Positions 18,835 to 47,384 of a stretch of 64,000 bases of DNA are shown one piece after another. Under the pieces are notes generated by a model. That model searched no databases and was not told the origin of the DNA. It saw nothing but the letters and a program-made list of their open reading frames with translations. The stretch is from Leisingera aquimarina DSM 24565 (GTDB lineage: Bacteria; Pseudomonadota; Alphaproteobacteria; Rhodobacterales; Rhodobacteraceae), in NCBI RefSeq assembly GCF_000473165.1, contig NZ_KI421504.1, positions 620,596 through 684,595 on the forward strand, given 5' to 3'. Position 1 is the stretch's first letter; every line of letters starts with the position of its first letter. A program made the position numbers and the translations under genes.

Positions 18835-21020
18835 GACTTGCCTCCTGCCAGCTTCAAAGCAGCTGCAACAATGCTATCCTTCGACGGCAACGTGGCACCA
18901 TAGGCCGGCCCTGTGGCAATGAAACAATCGCTGGCCGCCACCCGCGCCGTTGGAGCACCGCCTTGTTCCGCAAACAGTGCCATCAGCGCCTCTGACAGAC
19001 TGCCTGTGATGCGGCATTCATCGACGATTAGCAGATGTTTACAGCCCTTCACCGCCTCCAACAGCGCCGCCTCCGGCAAAGGCGCCAGCCAGCGCAGATC
19101 CACAATCCGCGCGTCCACTCCCTGGACCGCCAGTTCCGCCTGCGCCTGGGTCGAGAGATACCGTCCATTGCCATAGGTCACGATGGCCAAATCGGTGCCT
19201 TCCCCATGCAGACCCGCTTCGCCCAAAGCAATCCGCCGGTCCGGAGTGGGGTAGGTCCGCATCCAGCCGCCATCCTTCGCCTGATGCAGGTCCCGCATTG
19301 GATACAGCGCAATCGGCTCGACAAAGACCACCACCCGCTGCTCTTCGCGCGCCAGGCGCACCGCCTCGCGCATCATCATTGCAGCCTCAGCCCCATCTGA
19401 GGGACAGGCAATCACAATTCCAGGAATATCCCGCAGCACCGCCAGAGAGTTGTCATTGTGGAAGTGCCCGCCAAAACCCTTCTGATAGCCAAGGCCCGCA
19501 ATCCGCAGCACCATCGGGTTGGTGAAGTGCCCGTCCGAGAAGAAAGGCAAAGTCGCCGCTTCGCCGCGCAGCTGGTCCTCGGCATTGTGCAGATAGGCAA
19601 GGAACTGGATTTCCGGGATGGGCACAAACCCATTGTGCCCCATACCAATCGCCAGTCCCAGGATCGACTGCTCATCCAGCAGGGTGTCGATGACCCGGTC
19701 CGGTCCGAACCGCTGCTGCAATTTCTGAGACACGCCGTAGACACCGCCCTTGCGGCCTACATCCTCGCCCATCATGACGATCTCGCCATGCTCCAGCATC
19801 AAATCGGTCAGCGCCCAGTTGATCAGCCGCGACATCGGTTGCGGCTCCTCCATCGCCCGCATGTCGCTGCCGAACGCCGCTGCCCGCTCCTCTAAACGCG
19901 GGCCATTGGTGGGCGTACAGTTCCGCGTTGGCGGAATCAGGCTGGCAGCCACATCTTCTGCCGTCTTCAGATGCGGCCGTGTCACCGCCTCTGCCCGGAT
20001 TCGCTCCACCCGCGCGCAAGTGTCCGTGTAAATTTTCAGCGCTTCCTTGGGCTGCAGCGCCCCGGCTTTATTCAGCAGCCGCACCGAATGAAGCAGCGGA
20101 TCATTGGCTTCATCCGCCTCAACCTCGGTCTTGCTGAGGTAAGTGGTCGGAACATCCGCCCCGGCATGGCCGTACAGCCGCACGGTGCGCAGATGCAGGA
20201 AGGCCGGCTTCTTGCGGGTCCGCACATACTCTGCTGCCTCTTGCGCCACTGCAAAGGCGTTATAGATATCCAGCCCGTCTGCCTTGAAATACTTGATGCC
20301 CGGCCGCTGCGCCATCGAGGCCTCGATCCAGCCCTTCGGCGTTTTTACGGAAATGCCGATACCGTTGTCCTCGCAGACAAACAGCAACGGCAGCGGCGTC
20401 GATTGCACCGAACTCCAGCCCGCGGTGTTGATTGCCCCCTGCGCGGTCGAATGGTTGGCCGAAGCATCCCCGAAGGAGCACATGACAATGGCGTCTTCCG
20501 GCAGCACCTGGTGCTCCGGCTGATGCCGCTTGGCTGCGCCGATGGAATAAGCCGCCCCCACCGCCTTTGGCAGATGCGAGGCAATGGTGGAGGTCTGCGG
20601 CGGAATCATTAAAGTTTTGGAACCCAGAACCTTGTGCCGGCCGCCTGAGGTCGGGTCTTCGCTGGAACAGGCAAAGGACAGCAGCATGTCCCAAGCAATC
20701 CGTTGACCCGGCACCTGATCCGCCCGGGCAATCTGGAACGCAGCATCACGATAGTGCAGGAACGCCATGTCGGTCGGGCGCAACGCTTGCGCCACCGCTG
20801 CCATCCCCTCATGCCCCGAGGAGCCAATGGTGTAAAACCCCTCGCCCTCCTTTTGCATCGCCCGGCTGGTCAGGTCCAGCGCCCGGCTCAACACCTGTGC
20901 ACGGAATGTGCCGACAGCCTCCGATACGCCGAGCGGCCCTGCTGGTGCCGCACCTGCAGGGAAGTCTGCGGCTTTAACCCGGTCCAGGAAATTCTTATGC
21001 ACAATCTGGGCGCGGTCCAT
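18831..21020 (-). CDS. Fused alpha/beta 2-oxoacid dehydrogenase E1 component
   Basis: Protein of 729 residues joining both E1 subunits of a thiamine-diphosphate 2-oxoacid dehydrogenase. The alpha half (about 1-390) has the ThDP motif FGDASANHSTAQGAINTA. The beta half (about 400-729) has the conserved MGEDVGRKGGVYGV and IPEIQFLAYL. The type is closest to branched-chain 2-oxoacid dehydrogenases. There is no E2 or E3 gene beside it; the only partner is the overlapping malonyltransferase-like gene. AAGGAGG before the ATG at 21020 decides the start, although the frame is open further upstream. Confidence 0.85.
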   Translation of the reverse strand: MDRAQIVHKNFLDRVKAADFPAGAAPAGPLGVSEAVGTFRAQVLSRALDLTSRAMQKEGEGFYTIGSSGHEGMAAVAQALRPTDMAFLHYRDAAFQIARADQVPGQRIAWDMLLSFACSSEDPTSGGRHKVLGSKTLMIPPQTSTIASHLPKAVGAAYSIGAAKRHQPEHQVLPEDAIVMCSFGDASANHSTAQGAINTAGWSSVQSTPLPLLFVCEDNGIGISVKTPKGWIEASMAQRPGIKYFKADGLDIYNAFAVAQEAAEYVRTRKKPAFLHLRTVRLYGHAGADVPTTYLSKTEVEADEANDPLLHSVRLLNKAGALQPKEALKIYTDTCARVERIRAEAVTRPHLKTAEDVAASLIPPTRNCTPTNGPRLEERAAAFGSDMRAMEEPQPMSRLINWALTDLMLEHGEIVMMGEDVGRKGGVYGVSQKLQQRFGPDRVIDTLLDEQSILGLAIGMGHNGFVPIPEIQFLAYLHNAEDQLRGEAATLPFFSDGHFTNPMVLRIAGLGYQKGFGGHFHNDNSLAVLRDIPGIVIACPSDGAEAAMMMREAVRLAREEQRVVVFVEPIALYPMRDLHQAKDGGWMRTYPTPDRRIALGEAGLHGEGTDLAIVTYGNGRYLSTQAQAELAVQGVDARIVDLRWLAPLPEAALLEAVKGCKHLLIVDECRITGSLSEALMALFAEQGGAPTARVAASDCFIATGPAYGATLPSKDSIVAAALKLAGGKS

Positions 21021-21641
21021 ACGGCCTCCTTGAGATAAACTTTGGGTGCATTTATCCGCGAAGGCGCCATCAAGGCCAATGAGATTGCCTACTAGTTTCA
21101 TTCCCAATTGGAATGATGTGACGTAAAATCAGGACATTTTAGTACTAGCAGGACGATCCAACTTGATTGAGAAGCAAATATTATGAATATCTTTCAATAG
21201 GTTTTCAGATATACATGGCGTTGTTGCAGAACTCTGACTTCTGAGGATTCACATCAGGAATCCATGCGCTTGCACGGTCCGCATGAACAAACCATCCCCC
21301 TCCCGCGATCGCACAACGAACTGGTCCAGCCACAACGCCGCGTTGCGCAAGCGGGGCTCGCTGCTGATCTGGGTGGACAAGGACATGACTTGGCGCGCGC
21401 CGCAGGAATGCCGTCCGGGCCGCCCTGCGGTCTTCTCCGACGCGGCGATCCAGTTCTGCCTGTCGATCAAAGCGCTGTTCAAGCTGCTCTTGCGGCAGGC
21501 CGCCGGGATGGCGTCGAGTCCGCTCCGGCTGGCAGGTCCGGATTGGCCCGTGCCCGGCTTCTCCACCCTCTGCCGCAGGCAGAAGACACTGGCGGTGCAG
21601 ATCCCCTATCGCCGCATGGACGGCCCGCTCAACCTGCTGGT

Positions 21642-21681
21642 CCCCTCTCGGGCATCACTCTGTGATGCCCCGCCGGGCAAT
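21642..21681 (-). repeat. Hairpin mini-insert E1
   Basis: Forty bases inserted in the IS5 transposase between CTGGT and GGACAGC. The order in this strand is CCCCTCTC, a perfect 9-bp stem (GGGCATCAC, 21650-21658, with GTGATGCCC, 21662-21670) around a TCT loop, then CGCCGGGCAAT. Read on the minus strand it has the shared layout TGCCCGGC - stem - GAGAGGGG. It shifts the transposase frame. Confidence 0.75.
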
Positions 21682-21758
21682 GGACAGCACCGGGATCAAG
21701 TTGCTTGGGGATGGCGAATGGCAGGCCCGCAAGCACGGGATGCAGGGCCGCCGCCAAT

Positions 21759-21797
21759 CCCTGCCCGGCAGTTGATTGCAAAGCAATCAATGAGAGG
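21759..21797 (+). repeat. Hairpin mini-insert E2
   Basis: Thirty-nine bases inserted between codons for Gln and Arg-Lys of the IS5 transposase (GRRQ/WRKVHLA). The layout is TGCCCGGCAG, a perfect 8-bp stem (TTGATTGC, 21772-21779, with GCAATCAA, 21783-21790) around an AAA loop, then TGAGAGGGG. The length keeps the frame but adds two TGA stop codons. Confidence 0.75.
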
Positions 21798-22078
21798 GGC
21801 GCAAGGTGCATCTGGCCATGGACACGGCGACCTCCGGCATGCGCGCTGTGGAATTCACTCCAAGCCGCGACGGCGACAGTCCTGTGCTGCCGGCCTGTGC
21901 TGCCGGACCTGCTCGGTCAGATCTCCGAGGCCGAGCAGATCGGCACCGTGACCGCTGACCGGGCATATGACACGCGCCGCTGCCACACCGCCATCATCGG
22001 CCGGCAAGCCACCCCGGTCATCCCGATCCGCAAGAACGGGCCCGCGTGGAAAGAGGATTGCCCGGCTGCGCGGGTCGA

Positions 22079-22360
22079 GCCCTCTGCCGGCAGCGCCGGA
22101 GACAGTTGCGACAATGCCTTGGCCGAGACGATCAACGGCTTGTTCAAGGCCGAGGCCGTTCACCGCCGCGGCCCTTGGCGCAACTTCGAGGCAGTGGAAT
22201 ACGCAGGTGGACTGGTTCAACAGCCGCCGCCTGCTCGAGCCTATCGGGAACATTCCGCCGGCAGAAGCAGAGGCCAATTTCTACGCCGCCCTGGAAACTG
22301 AGGACATTGCCGCGTAACTAACTGAAATCAGCCTCCGGCAAACCCGGGGCGGTTCAATCC
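22079..22360 (+). pseudogene. IS3-family transposase OrfB, C-terminal fragment
   Basis: From GDSCDNALAETINGLFKAE onward the translation matches the end of an IS3-type OrfB (integrase-like DDE domain), joined in frame to the IS5 remnant upstream. A short deletion before VDWFNSRRLLEPIGNIPPAEAEANF breaks the frame. The coding part ends with TAA at 22317, and the following CTGAAATCAGCCTCCGGCAA looks like the element's right end. Only about 80 codons remain. Confidence 0.75.
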
Positions 22361-22599
22361 TTTGAGGGAGTACAGTATTCCTTGAAAGGATACTCGCGCA
22401 AACGCGGGGCGTTTTGAGCGTTCACTATCCCCCTTTGTGGGTGCGGCTAGCTCTTTGCCAGGATAGTTCGAAGTTTGATCAGCCCACCTAAGTGTTCCAG
22501 TCTAATTGTAAGTGCATGACCGGCTGGAGCTCATCCCGTTTCTAGTCCGGGCTTCATGCGACCTTTCGGGCTTCCTTCAGTTGGGCGGCAAATTCGCCC
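22361..22599. other. Non-coding accessory sequence between IS remnants
   Basis: No gene seen. It holds an imperfect inverted repeat near 22370-22402 (GAGTA ... TACTC with TCCTT/AAGGA inside). Otherwise there is unassigned sequence between the IS3 tail and the IS110 scrap. Confidence 0.4.
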
Positions 22600-22790
22600 G
22601 GCGTCAATGGCATCGGACTTGCCACGCTTCACATAGGGCTTCATGCACACCGGTGGGATCAACCGCACATCATGACCCAACGCTCTTAACCCGCGAGCCC
22701 AATGGTGAGCTGTGCTGCAGGTTTCCATGCCAATCAGGCACGCTCCAGCTTCGCAAAGAAAGGCATATCTTTGGACGTGTCGCGGTTTGA
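22600..22790 (-). pseudogene. IS110-family transposase fragment
   Basis: On the minus strand about 60 codons match an internal part of an IS110 transposase: ACLIGMETCSTAHHWARGLRALGHDVRL, then KPYVKRGKSDAIDA. Sequence before ACLIGME fits the family only in another frame (KDMPFFAKLE), so the fragment is also frameshifted. It is cut at 22790 by the left end of the IS3 element and loses similarity after the DAIDA stretch. Confidence 0.7.
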
Positions 22791-22834
22791 TGCCGCTCCT
22801 TTGATAGCATTTATTGCAGCAAAGGAGACGAGCT

Positions 22835-23076
22835 ATGGGAACGAAACGGACGGGCGAATTCCGCGCTGATGCAGTGCGGATCGCGTTAACCAGCGGACTG
22901 ACACGCAAACAGGTGGCGTCTGATTTGGGCGTTGGCGTATCGACGCTGAACAAGTGGATCACGACGCACCGCGATACGGAAGTGGTGCCGGACAAAGACT
23001 TGGACCTTGCCCGCGAGAATGAACGGCTTCGACGCGAGAACCGCATTCTCAAGGAGGAGAGGGAGATCTTAAAAAA
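22835..23076 (+). pseudogene. IS3-family OrfA, split by IS110
   Basis: The first 81 codons of an IS3-type OrfA: helix-turn-helix (RIALTSGLTRKQVASDLGVG, residues about 15-35) followed by a leucine-zipper-like coiled coil (DLARENERLRRENRILKEE). The frame then runs into the IS110 insertion. The missing last residues are found at 24668-24703. AAGGAG precedes the ATG. The A-rich LKK codons are where IS3 elements often use programmed frameshifting. Confidence 0.85.
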
Positions 23077-24667
23077 ACCGTTCCGGGCCGCTGCCCGCCT
23101 GTGCGCGGTAGCAACAGCTTGTGCTACGTTTTGCGCGAAGGGTAGTTGCCGATGGCTTATTGGAGGTCAGACCCCGTTAAAAAACGTGGCACATGGGCTG
23201 ATGCGCACTTGAGAGTGGTGACGCCGCCGTTGCGGCGATCCCGGTTAGGAAGATGACGAACTTGCATGGCCCACGCCCTTCGCCTGGAACGGAGGAGATG
23301 CCATGACAAAGGTTAATACCGTTGACCACCCGGATTTGAAGATGGTCAGTCCCAATGCGGCGGCGATTGACATCGGTTCGACCATGCACATGGCAGCTGT
23401 GAACCCGGACACTGGCACCATGCCGGTGCGTGCCTTCGGGACGTTCACCCAGGACCTGCACGATCTCGCCGCCTGGTTTCGGTCGTGCGGTATCACCACT
23501 GTGGCGATGGAATCGACCGGCGTCTACTGGATACCGGCCTTCGAGATCCTGGAAGAGCACGGCTTCGAGGTCATCCTCGTCAATGCCCGCTATGCCAAGA
23601 ATGTACCGGGTCGCAAAACCGACGTCAGCGATGCCGGATGGCTGCGCCAGTTGCACTCTTATGGGTTGCTCCGCGGCAGCTTCCGGCCTGAGGCCGAGAT
23701 CGCCACGCTGCGGGCTTACATGCGCCAACGGGAACGGCTCATTGAGTACGCCGCCGCGCATATTCAACACATGCAAAAGGCGTTGATGGAGATGAACCTG
23801 CAGCTGCATCATGTCGTCTCCGACATCACAGGCGCGACGGGCATGCGGATCATCCGCGCCATCGTCGATGGTGAGCGTGACCCGGAAGTTCTCGCCGCGT
23901 TTCGGGACATCCGCTGCAAATCTTCTGTGGACATGATCAAGGCCGCACTGGTCGGCAACGATCGTGACGAACACGTCTTTGCTCTGACACAGTCGCTGGA
24001 ACTTTACGACTTCTACAAAGCGCAGATCGAGGCCTGCGATCGCAGGCTGGAGGCAGCTGTTGGAGCGCTGACGGTCCGGGCGGATGGTGATCTGGTTCCA
24101 CTGCCCAAGGCACGGATCAGGGGCAAGCAGCACAATGCCCCGTCCTTTGATGTGCGGGCTGCGCTATATGGGGTGTTGGGCACAGATCTGACGCAGATCC
24201 ACGGCCTCGGGCCATCGCTGGCTCTGAAGCTGGTGGCCGAATGCGGCACGGACCTGCGCGCCTGGAAGAGCGCCAAGCACTTCACATCGTGGCTTTGTCT
24301 GGCCCCGGGCAACAAAATATCGGGTGGTAAATTGATGTCCTCACGGACACGCAGATCTTCAAGCCGCGCGCGGCTGCGCTCCTGCGTCTGGCAGCCGTCA
24401 CGATTGGCCGAAGTGACACGGCCTTGGGTGCGTTCTATCGACGCCTCTCGGCACGGATCGGCAAACAGAAGGCAGTGACGGCCACGGCAAGGAAGATCGC
24501 AGTCTTGTTCTACAACGCCATCCGCTATGGCATGACCTATCAAGATCAGGGGGCGGCTGCCTACGACGAACGACATCGGCAACGTGTGCTCTCCAACCTC
24601 CAACGCCGCGCCAAGACACTTGGTTATGCCTTGGCGCCTATGCCAGGGGAATGGGCTGTTTCTTAGG
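23077..24667 (+). mobile_element. IS110-family insertion sequence inside IS3 orfA
   Basis: About 1.59 kb placed between two parts of orfA that rejoin cleanly, which fixes the boundaries within a few bases. There are no long terminal inverted repeats, as usual for IS110. It has a 226-bp non-coding left part ahead of the transposase gene and almost none after it. That layout matches IS110 elements whose left end encodes a guide (bridge) RNA. Confidence 0.75.
23303..24666 (+). pseudogene. IS110-family transposase, frameshifted
   Basis: DEDD-type recombinase of IS110, about 453 codons. The RuvC-like N-terminal part has the acidic residues in AAIDIGST, AMESTGVYW and GRKTDVSDA. The C-terminal transposase_20 part begins near QIHGLGPSLALKLVAE. 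After GNKISGGKLMSSRTRRSSSR (about 24370) a one- or two-base change shifts the frame. The true C-terminus (LGAFYRRLSARIGKQKAV to GEWAVS) continues in another frame to the TAG at 24666. The original active-site serine region lies close to the break, so the copy is probably inactive. Confidence 0.85.
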
Positions 24668-24951
24668 AAGGCAACACAGTTCTTCGCGAGCCAAAGGCCA
24701 TGAGATTTAGATTCATCGAAGAGCACTGCCACATCTTTTCAACGAAACAGATGTGTAAGGTCATGGATGTGAGCCCCCGTGGTTTGCGGGCATTCCGCAG
24801 CCGTCCTGCCAGCCGGAGGCAGAGAACTGATCTGGTAGTGCTGGCTCACATCAAGGAACAATCCTGCCTTAGCTTGGGCAGCTACAGTCGACCGAGAATG
24901 ACTGAAGAGCTGAAAGAGCTGGGTCTGAACGTTGGACACCGCCGGGTTGGC

Positions 24952-25000
24952 AGCGTTCCTCGGGCAAATGATCCCCCGGATCATTTGCGGAATCCTCGTC
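24952..25000. repeat. Hairpin mini-insert E5 (divergent)
   Basis: About 44 extra bases in OrfB between RRVG and RENGI. The core is a perfect 11-bp stem (GCAAATGATCC, 24964-24974, with GGATCATTTGC, 24978-24988) around a CCC loop. The flanks CCTCGG and CCTCG differ from the other inserts, so it may be a distant relative or unrelated. Confidence 0.55.
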
Positions 25001-25054
25001 ACTGCGCGAAAACGGCATACGGGTCGAACGGTTAAAGAAATACAAGGTGACGAC

Positions 25055-25095
25055 CATTGCCCGGCAGGCGATTGCAAAGCAATCTGCCGAGAGGG
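25055..25095 (+). repeat. Hairpin mini-insert E3
   Basis: Forty-one extra bases in OrfB between KVTT and DSNHAFN. The layout is ATTGCCCGGCAG, a stem GATTGC/GCATTC-type pair (GATTGC 25070-25075 with GCAATC 25079-25084, AAA loop) extended by GGCA/TGCC around a 3-base bulge, then GAGAGGGG. It shares both flanks and the loop with E2. Confidence 0.75.
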
Positions 25096-25427
25096 GGACA
25101 GCAATCACGCCTTCAACATCGCGCCAAATCTGCTGAACCGCAATTTCCATGCGGACCGGCCCAATCAGAAATGGGCGGGAGAAATCAGTTATGTTTGGAC
25201 GCGAGAGGGGTGGCTCTATCTGGCCGTCATCCTCGACCTGCATTCACGGCGAGTGATCGGCTGGGCTGTGTCAAACCGGATGAAACGCGACCTTGCCATC
25301 CGCGCACTGAACATGGCCATAGCCTTACGGCAGCCGCCCAAAGGCTGCATTCACCACGCGGACAGGGGCAGTCAGTACTGCTCGCACGACTACCAGAGGA
25401 TCCTGCGCCGGCATGGGTTCCAGGCGT

Positions 25428-25465
25428 CCCCTCTCATGCATGTAAACATGCACTGCTGGGGCAGT
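25428..25465 (-). repeat. Hairpin mini-insert E4
   Basis: Thirty-eight extra bases in OrfB between RRHGFQ and MSGKGN. In this strand: CCCCTCTCA, a 7-bp stem (TGCATGT, 25437-25443, with ACATGCA, 25446-25452) around AA, then CTGCTGGGGCAG. The minus-strand layout TGCCCCAGCAG - stem - TGAGAGGGG matches E1-E3. Confidence 0.7.
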
Positions 25466-25700
25466 GGATGAGCGGGAAGGGCAATTGCTATGACAACTCC
25501 GCGGTGGAAACCTTCTTCAAGACCATCAAGGCTGAATTGATCTGGCGGCAGTCCTGGCCAACGCGACGAACAGCAGAGATGGCAATCTTCAACTACATAA
25601 ACGGCTTCTACAATCCGCGCCGACGGCACTCTGCCTTAGGCTGGAAAAGCCCAGTCGCTTTCGAACGGAACGTGGCTTAAACGAGCACCTGGGGCGGCAC

Positions 25701-26516
25701 TAATACGTGACACGTACAGTCCGCGTTCAATTTCCCGGCTAGTCGGTTCGGCTTGCCAATCGTCATGGAAAATTTCTCCTTTCAATCGCCAGCGTTCGCC
25801 AGTGTCGGGGTCTTTGGCGGTGATGTAATTTTTGCTGGCGCGGGGAATTTCGAAGCCTGCTTCTGTCAGGGCGTCGACCATGCTGGCGCGGTCGCTGATG
25901 ACGCCGATACTGATCTGGTCCAAGATCCACTCGTGCAGCTCTTCGCGACCTCGCGCCCGCGTTGAGGCCTCGACGGTAGCCTGCACCTCCTGAGCGCGAT
26001 CCAGATCCATGGGATCGGCCCAGCCGTGCGTCTTGTTCATCAGATCGCGCAGGCTGTCATAGGCAATCTGATAGCCAGGCGGAGCAATATTGAGGGCCTT
26101 GCCTGCCGTCAGCACCAAACGTGGCGTGCAGAAGTGCAGCTCAACACGGTCTTCGTGGCTGTGACGAACCCAGAGCATGTCAAATTGCTCACCATCCAGC
26201 CTCGCAAAAGCCGGCTGTTCGAAAGCATCCATGACTTCGGCCTGCTGGGCTTCGGTAGGCGCGTCTTCATTGGCAAAGCTGACGACACCCGCGCGGTAGG
26301 TCATTGGTGGCGGCCGGCATCGATCAGCGCCTCGGTGCGGACAGGATCTCCGCGCAGCACCTCTGGCAGCGGGTCACGTGCGACCGTCATCGGCTGGCCG
26401 TCGGCATCGCGGATCAGGTCGCGATTGGCGTCATAGTCCAGCACTTCCCGCACCACCAGATAGCCGACAGGGCCAGCACCCGCGCCCTTGCCGTTGGGAA
26501 AGAACTTGATCAGCAT
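25701..26516 (-). pseudogene. Relaxase/mobilization nuclease, frameshifted and truncated
   Basis: MobA/VirD2-type relaxase. The N-terminal piece (26301-26516, MLIKFFPNGKGAGAGPVGYL) and the next piece (from 26304, MTYRAGVVSFANEDAPTEAQQ) are one domain broken by a single missing base at ATGA; an added G would restore CAA-TGG-ACC. The nuclease histidine cluster WVRHSHEDRVELHF follows. The C-terminus is cut at about 25700 by the IS3 right end, so the residues after VSRIS come from the element. The enzyme would nick at an oriT, but this copy is broken. Confidence 0.75.
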
Positions 26517-27876: not shown

Positions 27877-27953
27877 TGGCGACCCCGGCAGGATTCGAAC
27901 CTGCAACCTGCCCCTTAGGAGGGGGCTGCTCTATCCAGTTGAGCCACGGGGCC
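27877..27953 (-). tRNA. tRNA-Arg (anticodon CCT)
   Basis: Cloverleaf is complete: acceptor GGCCCCG pairs with CGGGGTC, D arm GCTC/GAGC, anticodon stem GCCCC/GGGGC with loop CTCCTAA, and T arm with GGTTCGAATCC. The 3' CCA is encoded. The mobile region begins on its 3' side, the usual side for integration. Confidence 0.95.
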
Positions 27954-35761: not shown

Positions 35762-35837
35762 TGGTGAGCCGTGCAGGATTCGAACCTGCGACCCACTGAT
35801 TAAAAGTCAGTTGCTCTACCAACTGAGCTAACGGCCC
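35762..35837 (-). tRNA. tRNA-Lys (anticodon TTT)
   Basis: Complete cloverleaf: acceptor GGGCCGT, D arm GCTC/GAGC, anticodon stem ACTGA/TCAGT with loop CTTTTAA, and T arm GGTTCGAATCC. The 3' CCA is encoded. Confidence 0.95.
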
Positions 35838-43344: not shown

Positions 43345-43395
43345 CTCATTGTGAAATTCCCGCTTGCAGGCATCCCTGCTGGTTGGCACAGTCCC

Positions 43396-43545
43396 GCCGT
43401 TCTCAGGGCGGGGCGGAATTCCCCACCGGCGGTAAGCGGGCCAATCCCGTAAGCCCGCGAGCGGCTTCCAAGGATTTGGAAGTGTCAGCAGATTTGGTGC
43501 AACTCCAGAGCCGACGGTCACAGTCCGGATGGAAGAGAACGTGCA
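43396..43545 (+). promoter_or_regulatory. FMN riboswitch (RFN element)
   Basis: Carries the conserved blocks: TCTCAGGGCGGGGCGGAA, CCCACCGGCGGTAA, AGCCCGCGAGCG, GTCAGCAGATTTGGTG, CCAGAGCCGACGGTCA, and AGTCCGGATGGAAGAGAAC. It lies 78 bp upstream of ribH, so riboflavin synthesis is switched off when FMN is plentiful, probably at translation or transcription elongation. Confidence 0.96.
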
Positions 43546-47245: not shown

Positions 47246-47282
47246 GGCATCCTCCTTTGCGGCTTCGGGCAAGGGTGGAGGC

Positions 47283-47384
47283 TGTCCAGTACCTTCCCTC
47301 CGCCGGTGTGAGCCGGTTCAGGTTCAACGGGTGTCATCTCAGCGCTGCCGCGCACCCCGAGGTGGCGCGCACCCTAGGCCCCTC
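47283..47384 (-). promoter_or_regulatory. TPP riboswitch (THI element)
   Basis: On the minus strand: GGGGTGC..., GCTGAGAT, ACCCGTTGAACCTGA and CCGGCGGAGGGAAGG, the THI-box blocks. It lies about 40 bp upstream of thiB and should switch off thiBPQ when thiamine pyrophosphate is high. Confidence 0.95.

Follow-up and report, generated by a model that had tools for sequence, protein, structure and literature searches.

The four short inserts that interrupt an IS5 and an IS3 transposase gene in the 64,000-nucleotide stretch of Leisingera aquimarina DSM 24565 analyzed here (the window; contig NZ_KI421504.1, positions 620,596 to 684,595) belong to F1, a family of ~40-bp mobile hairpin elements that occurs mainly in marine Rhodobacteraceae. 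The own genome holds ~50 copies. We read F1, with a probability of about 0.7, as non-autonomous mobile hairpins riding on insertion sequences (ISs) that are probably mobilized in trans, and not as inserts that remove themselves. Below, G000 denotes the own genome, G002, G003 and so on the compared genomes, and L numbers the loci.

The inserts E1–E4 appear as gaps of exactly 40, 39, 41 and 38 bp against relatives that are empty at the same sites (Table 1), which agrees with the positions given in the first-pass annotation and exactly with its lengths. The references for E1 and E2 were annotated hairpin-free IS5 transposases from plasmids of Celeribacter ethanolicus (L293, WP_096807325.1) and Alloyangia pacifica (L294); for E3 and E4 the reference was the Tritonibacter multivorans copy of the window IS3 (L122), where both sites are empty but another position of the gene holds an F1 hairpin. 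The four inserts share one frame around stems that differ from copy to copy, and E1 and E4 are oriented opposite to E2 and E3, both as described earlier from the sequence. Taken singly, the half-motifs of F1 had no significance in the window: GAGAGGGG alone matched 5 times vs 2.36 expected, with at least 5 matches in 11 of 100 shuffles, and hence no excess over chance. The two-sided motif matched 52 times in the own genome vs once for its reversed control. The earlier annotation had allowed that the inserts might be chance or natural IS sequence, with the same sites filled in intact relatives or flanks that do not recur. The empty relatives and the reversed-motif controls rule this out.

The F1 unit reads C-N-Y-TGCCCGGCAG, then a stem with a loop of mostly 2–4 bases, then GAGAGG(GG). 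A motif search of the whole genome and of relatives, the check proposed in the annotation, found F1 in both. Within the genus, a loose pattern gave 60 hits in G002, 52 in the own genome, 49 in G003, 22 in G006 and 21 in G019, with 0 or 1 for the reversed control in each; further counts were 11 in G007, 10 in G022 and 7 in G033. Across 385 alphaproteobacterial genomes, drawn evenly, the strict motif was present in 4 of 5 genomes of the same family vs 2 of 380 others (with three hairpin-like matches there), and the reversed strict motif had no match in this set. Among the matches listed from a scan of named genomes (80 of 117 stretches, a sample biased to multicopy sites), most were from Rhodobacterales, with a few in Cohaesibacter, Labrenzia and one Rhodospirillales bin; in the more distant taxa listed, the hairpin was absent at most motif matches. 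This recurrence, together with the empty sites, supports the earlier suggestion that these are very small mobile elements in which the frame is conserved and the hairpin varies, distinct from an IS end, an attC site or a chance repeat. Rfam gave no match up to an E-value of 1 for window positions 20500–26500, and a search of the open PubMed Central literature by title and abstract, with subscription papers outside its scope, found no account of F1.

For the analyses of structure and junctions, 18 weak folds were set aside from 188 motif matches, and the remaining 170 collapsed to 120 positions, of which 107 were kept. The weak folds probably include real variants (e.g. L047, L083, L087 and L135). 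Thirteen loci with non-hairpin sequence or from unrelated taxa were removed by hand (L045, L093, L095, L097, L101, L142, L144, L152, L157, L168, L180, L189 and L205), and L094 and L183, terminator-like and intergenic, were also excluded from the analyses of pairing, bulges, net length and absorbed bases. A terminator-like version, CGGCAGGCGGC-TTT-GCCGCCGAGAGG, occurs in several genomes (L094 7539–7570, L183 4635–4666, G000:C1:2306865 and G002:C7:16237); it was intergenic where examined and is a possible relative or source of F1.

In the stems, pairing is kept while the sequence varies. For 114 distinct inner sequences, Watson-Crick pairs made up 851 of the 877 pairs in the stems, and the mean pairing score was 6.73 vs 3.53 when the 3' arms were re-dealt among elements (best of 200 re-deals, 3.82). 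A single bulged base was present in 52 of the 114, always in the 3' arm and in 44 cases a T; one strand is therefore special. G-T mismatches outnumbered A-C mismatches 14 to 5, which is not significant (p = 0.06) and does not settle whether the fold is that of RNA or of single-stranded DNA. The GCAG noted before the stem in the window recurs across most of the family, usually as GGCAG, with GCGG in E1.

The target of F1 is CRTC^G. Insertion leaves no duplication of it, and the G run that ends the element usually merges with a G or GG of the target. Over the 107 positions the left flank has the consensus CRTC and the right flank is nearly random, although the base directly 3' of the cut also tends to be G; both orientations relative to the host gene occur. 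Comparison with uninterrupted IS copies, as suggested in the earlier annotation, yielded exact empty sites for E1–E4. At 63 positions with empty relatives of 70–96% identity, the net insert was the length of the core (TGCCC...GAGAGGGG) plus 2 in 39 cases, plus 1 in 17, plus 3 in 4 and another value in 3; modulo 3, net lengths were 0 in 12, 1 in 23 and 2 in 28. At 54 close empty sites, one target base was absorbed into the terminal G run at 39, two at 12 and none at 3. The absorbed bases were G at 27 (27 of the 39 single bases, p = 3e-5 vs an assumed 0.35), GG at 8, C at 7, T at 3, A at 2 and other dinucleotides at four. The right end is GAGAGGGG in most copies and GAGAGGG in some, with 0–2 Gs coming from the target. 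The site GTC^GAATTC is empty in L357 of the G002 lineage and in the G000 relative L248, and holds a 42-bp F1 insert in the other copies. Different hairpins also reuse the same site amid empty relatives, e.g. LLV/DSTG of IS5 in several ISs, which is compatible with a short CRTC^G target.

In G002 and G000, the two genomes in which this was tested, almost every F1 copy is located within an IS transposase gene or next to one. In G002, from which the transposase library contains no locus, 25 of 30 F1 loci fetched (of 55 hits there) had a transposase match within 60 bp, and the remaining five matched the library at another point of their 3-kb locus. In G000, each locus was tested at its first hit (47 loci hold all 52 hits, and the library includes some of them), and 43 of 47 had a match within 60 bp; of the four misses, L010, L015 and L064 are chance or terminator-like motif matches, and the fourth is the L061 site in a second copy. 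Library matches cover 1,881 of the 64,000 bases of the window, all within 21,283–25,662. The host genes at the 107 positions were mostly named by eye from motifs, and Pfam was run on 49 selected pieces, a few of which were neighbors of the hairpin and not the interrupted gene. Transposase or integrase families were found in 22 of 30 selected pieces; for ten pieces next to unclear or intergenic sites, the result was an ordinary host gene or no match. By family name, the hosts include IS3, IS5, IS66, IS256, IS91, IS110, IS21, IS630 and IS1182-like elements and a tyrosine integrase. A minority of F1 sites is intergenic. Sites outside ISs include phage C5 methyltransferases, at the same place in L194 (8879–8913), L203 (1526–1560) and L202 (two sites), with the frame open through the insert as ~12 residues in L194 and L203, and a site beside a RelE-type gene (L105/L198, named by eye). 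At one position outside recognized transposases, F1 occurs with differing stems in four genomes (L137, L138, L190 and L193).

We then considered the state of the host ISs, using the three multicopy lineages examined, each with 5–7 near-identical full copies. The IS5 of the window, type A, has five full copies besides the truncated window copy; E1 and E2 occupy type A positions, a frame-breaking 13-bp tandem duplication is present in 6 of 6, and variable sites among the five full copies fall 8/6/4 on the three codon positions. A second IS5, type B, has six full copies, 95–99% identical to the query copy, each with three F1 hairpins and one hairpin of a second family (F2, below); a GC-rich hairpin insert is whole in four of them, and relative to L075/L070 a 1-base deletion is present in all six and a 2-base deletion in five (L214 differs). 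In the third lineage, the G002 IS, all seven full copies contain four F1 inserts and a GC-rich one; each has also lost 1 base, 7 bases or both, the combination differing between copies. With hairpins and further frameshifts breaking the genes, the transposases of these three lineages are predicted to be no longer alive. Three full-length, hairpin-free relatives of type A in the own genome (L247–L249) each retain one frame over 308 amino acids.

Under the reading we prefer, the folded F1 strand would be acted on by an inserting enzyme that the element does not encode, the hairpins would inactivate the host transposase, and hairpin-bearing ISs would spread in trans with help from intact relatives, carrying their hairpins along; for type A, L247–L249 could supply the transposase. 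Several observations weigh against this. No inserting enzyme was found: Y1, reverse transcriptase and IS91 Y2 each lack a match in one or more loaded genomes. The 12 single absorbed bases that are C, T or A depart from the G rule. Finally, the G002 IS has no in-frame stops and, in a comparison with five relatives, a branch omega of 0.14, with amino-acid constraint largely preserved; its hairpins predate its deletions, since they are in all seven full copies and the two deletions are not. An open frame under constraint would fit inserts that were tolerated for a time.

A rival explanation is passive tolerance alone: F1 might insert at random across the genome and be kept and multiplied only in ISs and a few intergenic places. 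IS copying does multiply inserts, some intergenic and phage sites exist, and the site sample favors multicopy positions. The age of the G002 IS speaks against it. The G002 IS differs from intact L248 by 0.034 nonsynonymous (dN) and 0.18 synonymous (dS) substitutions per site, with dN ~0.019 and dS ~0.08 on its own branch (a three-taxon calculation by hand), which leaves room for neutral evolution of only roughly 0.01–0.02 substitutions per site, a figure with a wide error. On this estimate, five hairpins would have entered a 0.93-kb gene during that short interval, and random insertion at such a rate would give thousands of copies genome-wide vs the 55 hits in G002. Some of the hairpins may have been acquired from related ISs by gene conversion, which would soften the argument: E1 and E2 sit where type A has its hairpins, and the B1 hairpin is common to type B (L062) and a 73% identical relative (L075/L070). 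Its flanks are nearly identical for tens of bases on each side, like a homing or gene-conversion tract. Overall we regard passive tolerance as somewhat unlikely.

As to the mover, the first-pass annotation had suggested a RAYT (REP-associated tyrosine transposase, REP being repetitive extragenic palindromic sequences) or IS200-like enzyme acting at the hairpin foot. In this account, the mover would be a Y1 enzyme of the RAYT or IS200/IS605-like kind, lost from or never present in some carriers, and F1 an unrecognized class of REP-like element. The anatomy fits, with no target duplication, a target motif mainly on the 5' side, the GGCAG foot and a strand-specific bulge. The search for Y1 genes proposed there gave a divided answer. 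Of the 61 genomes searched, 15 had a Y1 match, G000 and G003 among them, and F1 and Y1 counts correlated over 21 same-genus genomes (rho = 0.56, p = 0.008), although IS-rich genomes are richer in everything. In contrast, Y1_Tnp (PF01797) had no match in G002, G019, G007, G022 or G033, which hold 60, 21, 11, 10 and 7 loose-motif hits, and F1 hairpins were found at only 2 of 30 Y1 loci (1.6–3.4 kb each), ~0.3–1.3 kb from the Y1 gene. Target Gs are merged to a variable extent, which also agrees poorly with the fixed cleavage site that would be expected of a Y1 enzyme. The anatomical part of the suggestion is thus supported, the enzyme is not, and a Y1 mover is in our judgment rather unlikely. IS91-type Y2 counts gave the best correlation with F1 (rho = 0.82, 21 genomes). 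However, no IS91 Y2 match was found in G007 with its 11 loose-motif hits, IS91 is itself an F1 host, and no ends resembling F1 were seen in six IS91 loci, where the ends were not resolved. None of Y1, IS91 Y2 and reverse transcriptase tracks F1 through all loaded genomes. The mover need not be present in every carrier, because the hairpins travel inside ISs.

Insertion might instead be directed at ISs, with a host defense or an IS parasite rapidly peppering (multicopy) transposase genes with short hairpins at CRTC^G and shutting them down. The near-exclusive location in many unrelated IS families of the two genomes tested, the up to five inserts in one 0.93-kb gene over a short neutral interval, the reuse of sites by different hairpins amid empty relatives and the like behavior of F2 can be offered for this. 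Given possible gene conversion, the timing in G002 argues for directed insertion and does not prove it, and we consider it quite doubtful. If true, bacteria would have an analogue of repeat-directed mutation like the repeat-induced point mutation (RIP) of fungi.

Another way of making the junctions would be primed synthesis of the target-primed, retro type, in which a short RNA or single strand ending in GAGAGGGG would be copied at a nick in the target, its terminal G run pairing with the C or CC exposed there. A target G or GG was merged exactly in 35 of the 51 empty sites that absorbed at least one base, the 3' end is fixed while the 5' end is short (C-N-Y), and the excess of G-T mismatches leans the same way without reaching significance. 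RVT_1, on the other hand, had no match in G002, G003, G007, G009, G019 or G022, and primed synthesis is likewise improbable. That the inserts are transparent, cut from RNA or bypassed by ribosomes in byp-like fashion so that the transposases still work, is very improbable: multicopy hairpin-bearing ISs, the stop-free, constrained G002 IS with five inserts older than its deletions and the two methyltransferases that read the insert in frame would agree with it, but both orientations occur, net lengths fall in all three frames, type A differences are spread over codon positions, and removal or bypass at the RNA level is weakened by the additional frameshifts that types A and B and each of the seven full G002 copies carry.

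F1 is not the only such family. F2, with a unit of approximately TTCGNCGGG-stem-CCNCCTCAC, is at least one more hairpin family that behaves like F1 in several ISs of the own genome; it occurs in the window IS3, the type B IS5 copies, L228–L232, L238, L240, L256 and L257. The exact F2 pattern matched at 8 places, all in the own genome and spread over two types of host IS, and was absent from 24 other genomes. Two diverged variants, with stems that differ but pair, lie at 8 more places of the own genome, so the exact pattern is too strict to measure spread. The third, GC-rich insert, GTGAG..GGGACCGT..GCCCC..GGGGC..AGCCC..GAA, recurs in unrelated IS5 lineages (L062 ~1757–1807; L338 and other G002 copies; L070/L075).

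The window inserts lie in an IS island (21200–25700) made up of the truncated IS5, an IS3-type orfA piece (HTH_Tnp_1 in 22814–23212), an IS110 transposase (23303–24478) and the IS3 with E3 and E4. Elsewhere the window contains a flavin mononucleotide (FMN) riboswitch (43395–43544), a thiamine pyrophosphate (TPP) riboswitch (47278–47369) and tRNA genes at 27880–27953 and 35765–35837.

Table 1. Hairpin inserts and their host genes in the window; contig positions (C1) refer to the own genome, G000.
Feature	Position	Strand	Context	Basis
E1, F1 hairpin insert, 40 bp	21642..21681	-	First catalytic Asp codon (LLV/DSTG) of IS5 transposase	40-bp gap in hairpin-free L293/L294, slide of 1 possible; motif match G000:C1:642237-642274
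E2, F1 hairpin insert, 39 bp	21759..21797	+	Same IS5 gene as E1	39-bp gap in L293/L294; motif match 642357-642394
E3, F1 hairpin insert, 41 bp	25055..25095	+	IS3 transposase	41-bp gap in L122, slide of 1 possible, aligner placement 25056-25096; motif match 645653-645691
E4, F1 hairpin insert, 38 bp	25428..25465	-	Same IS3 gene as E3, directly before MSGKGNCYDN	38-bp gap in L122, slide of 1 possible, aligner placement 25429-25466; motif match 646023-646058
Host IS5 (type A), 3' part missing	21216..22076	+	Contains E1, E2 and 13-bp tandem duplication (~21881-21906); type A match stops at 22076	G000:C1:641811-642671 matches 286-1145 of full copy
Host IS3 orfB remnant	24698..25680	+	Contains E3, E4 and F2 hairpin	90-91% amino-acid identity to the copy in L122, both before and after E4; rve_2/rve_3 in 25057-25680
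F2 hairpin insert (second family)	24956..25002	+	Host IS3	Perfect 11-bp stem 24964-24988; G000:C1:645551-645597

With F1 comes a hairpin element family that is almost restricted to a single bacterial family and normally resides in the transposase genes of other mobile elements; its unit, its target and the rule for its junctions are defined. Being short and countable, with both empty and filled sites, it offers a tractable system for how REP-like hairpins without a RAYT move, and lets one ask why ISs are struck far more than the remaining genome. It also carries a warning for annotation: many "broken" transposases in these bacteria contain a recognizable insert.

Among known systems, the byps of Magnusiomyces mitochondria are likewise small hairpin inserts in coding genes; F1 hosts differ in having further frameshifts, and their sequences give no sign of bypass. 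Miniature inverted-repeat transposable elements (MITEs) and other non-autonomous IS derivatives share with F1 the non-autonomous, multicopy state and presumably movement in trans, whereas F1 is a single hairpin with asymmetric ends, no terminal inverted repeats, no target duplication and no parent IS found. Rickettsia palindromic elements (RPEs) are short palindromes in protein genes, comparable to F1 in frame in L194 and L203, but most F1 inserts break the frame and strike transposases, with a net multiple of 3 at 12 of 63 positions. IS200/IS605 elements, moved by Y1 enzymes, resemble F1 in a short fixed target 5' of the element and the lack of target duplication. The CGTC-tagged REPs of alphaproteobacteria are described (Di Nocera 2013, PMC3733652) as having an unpaired CGTC within the repeat, A-T first pairs and a CCA tail, and only few associations with transposase genes, all fortuitous, are reported there. 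They resemble F1 in their alphaproteobacterial hosts, in CGTC or CRTC beside a hairpin and in having no dedicated transposase known; in F1, by contrast, CRTC is the target and lies outside the insert at empty sites, the stems as a rule start without A-T pairs, and the end is GAGAGGGG and not CCA. REP, BIME and REPIN elements with their RAYTs (compare PMC3733652) come close in being short single-hairpin repeats in many copies, with a conserved foot beside the stem, one-sided irregularity, no target duplication and both orientations. Unlike REPs, which are mainly extragenic with a GTAG/GGAG foot, F1 sits inside transposase genes (25 of 30 and 43 of 47 loci within 60 bp of one), has mostly a GGCAG foot, inserts at CRTC^G with G merging and was found near only 2 of 30 Y1 loci, with no Y1 match in several loaded genomes. 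In how it works, F1 is comparable to REPs and other short mobile hairpins, and its target geometry is Y1-like.

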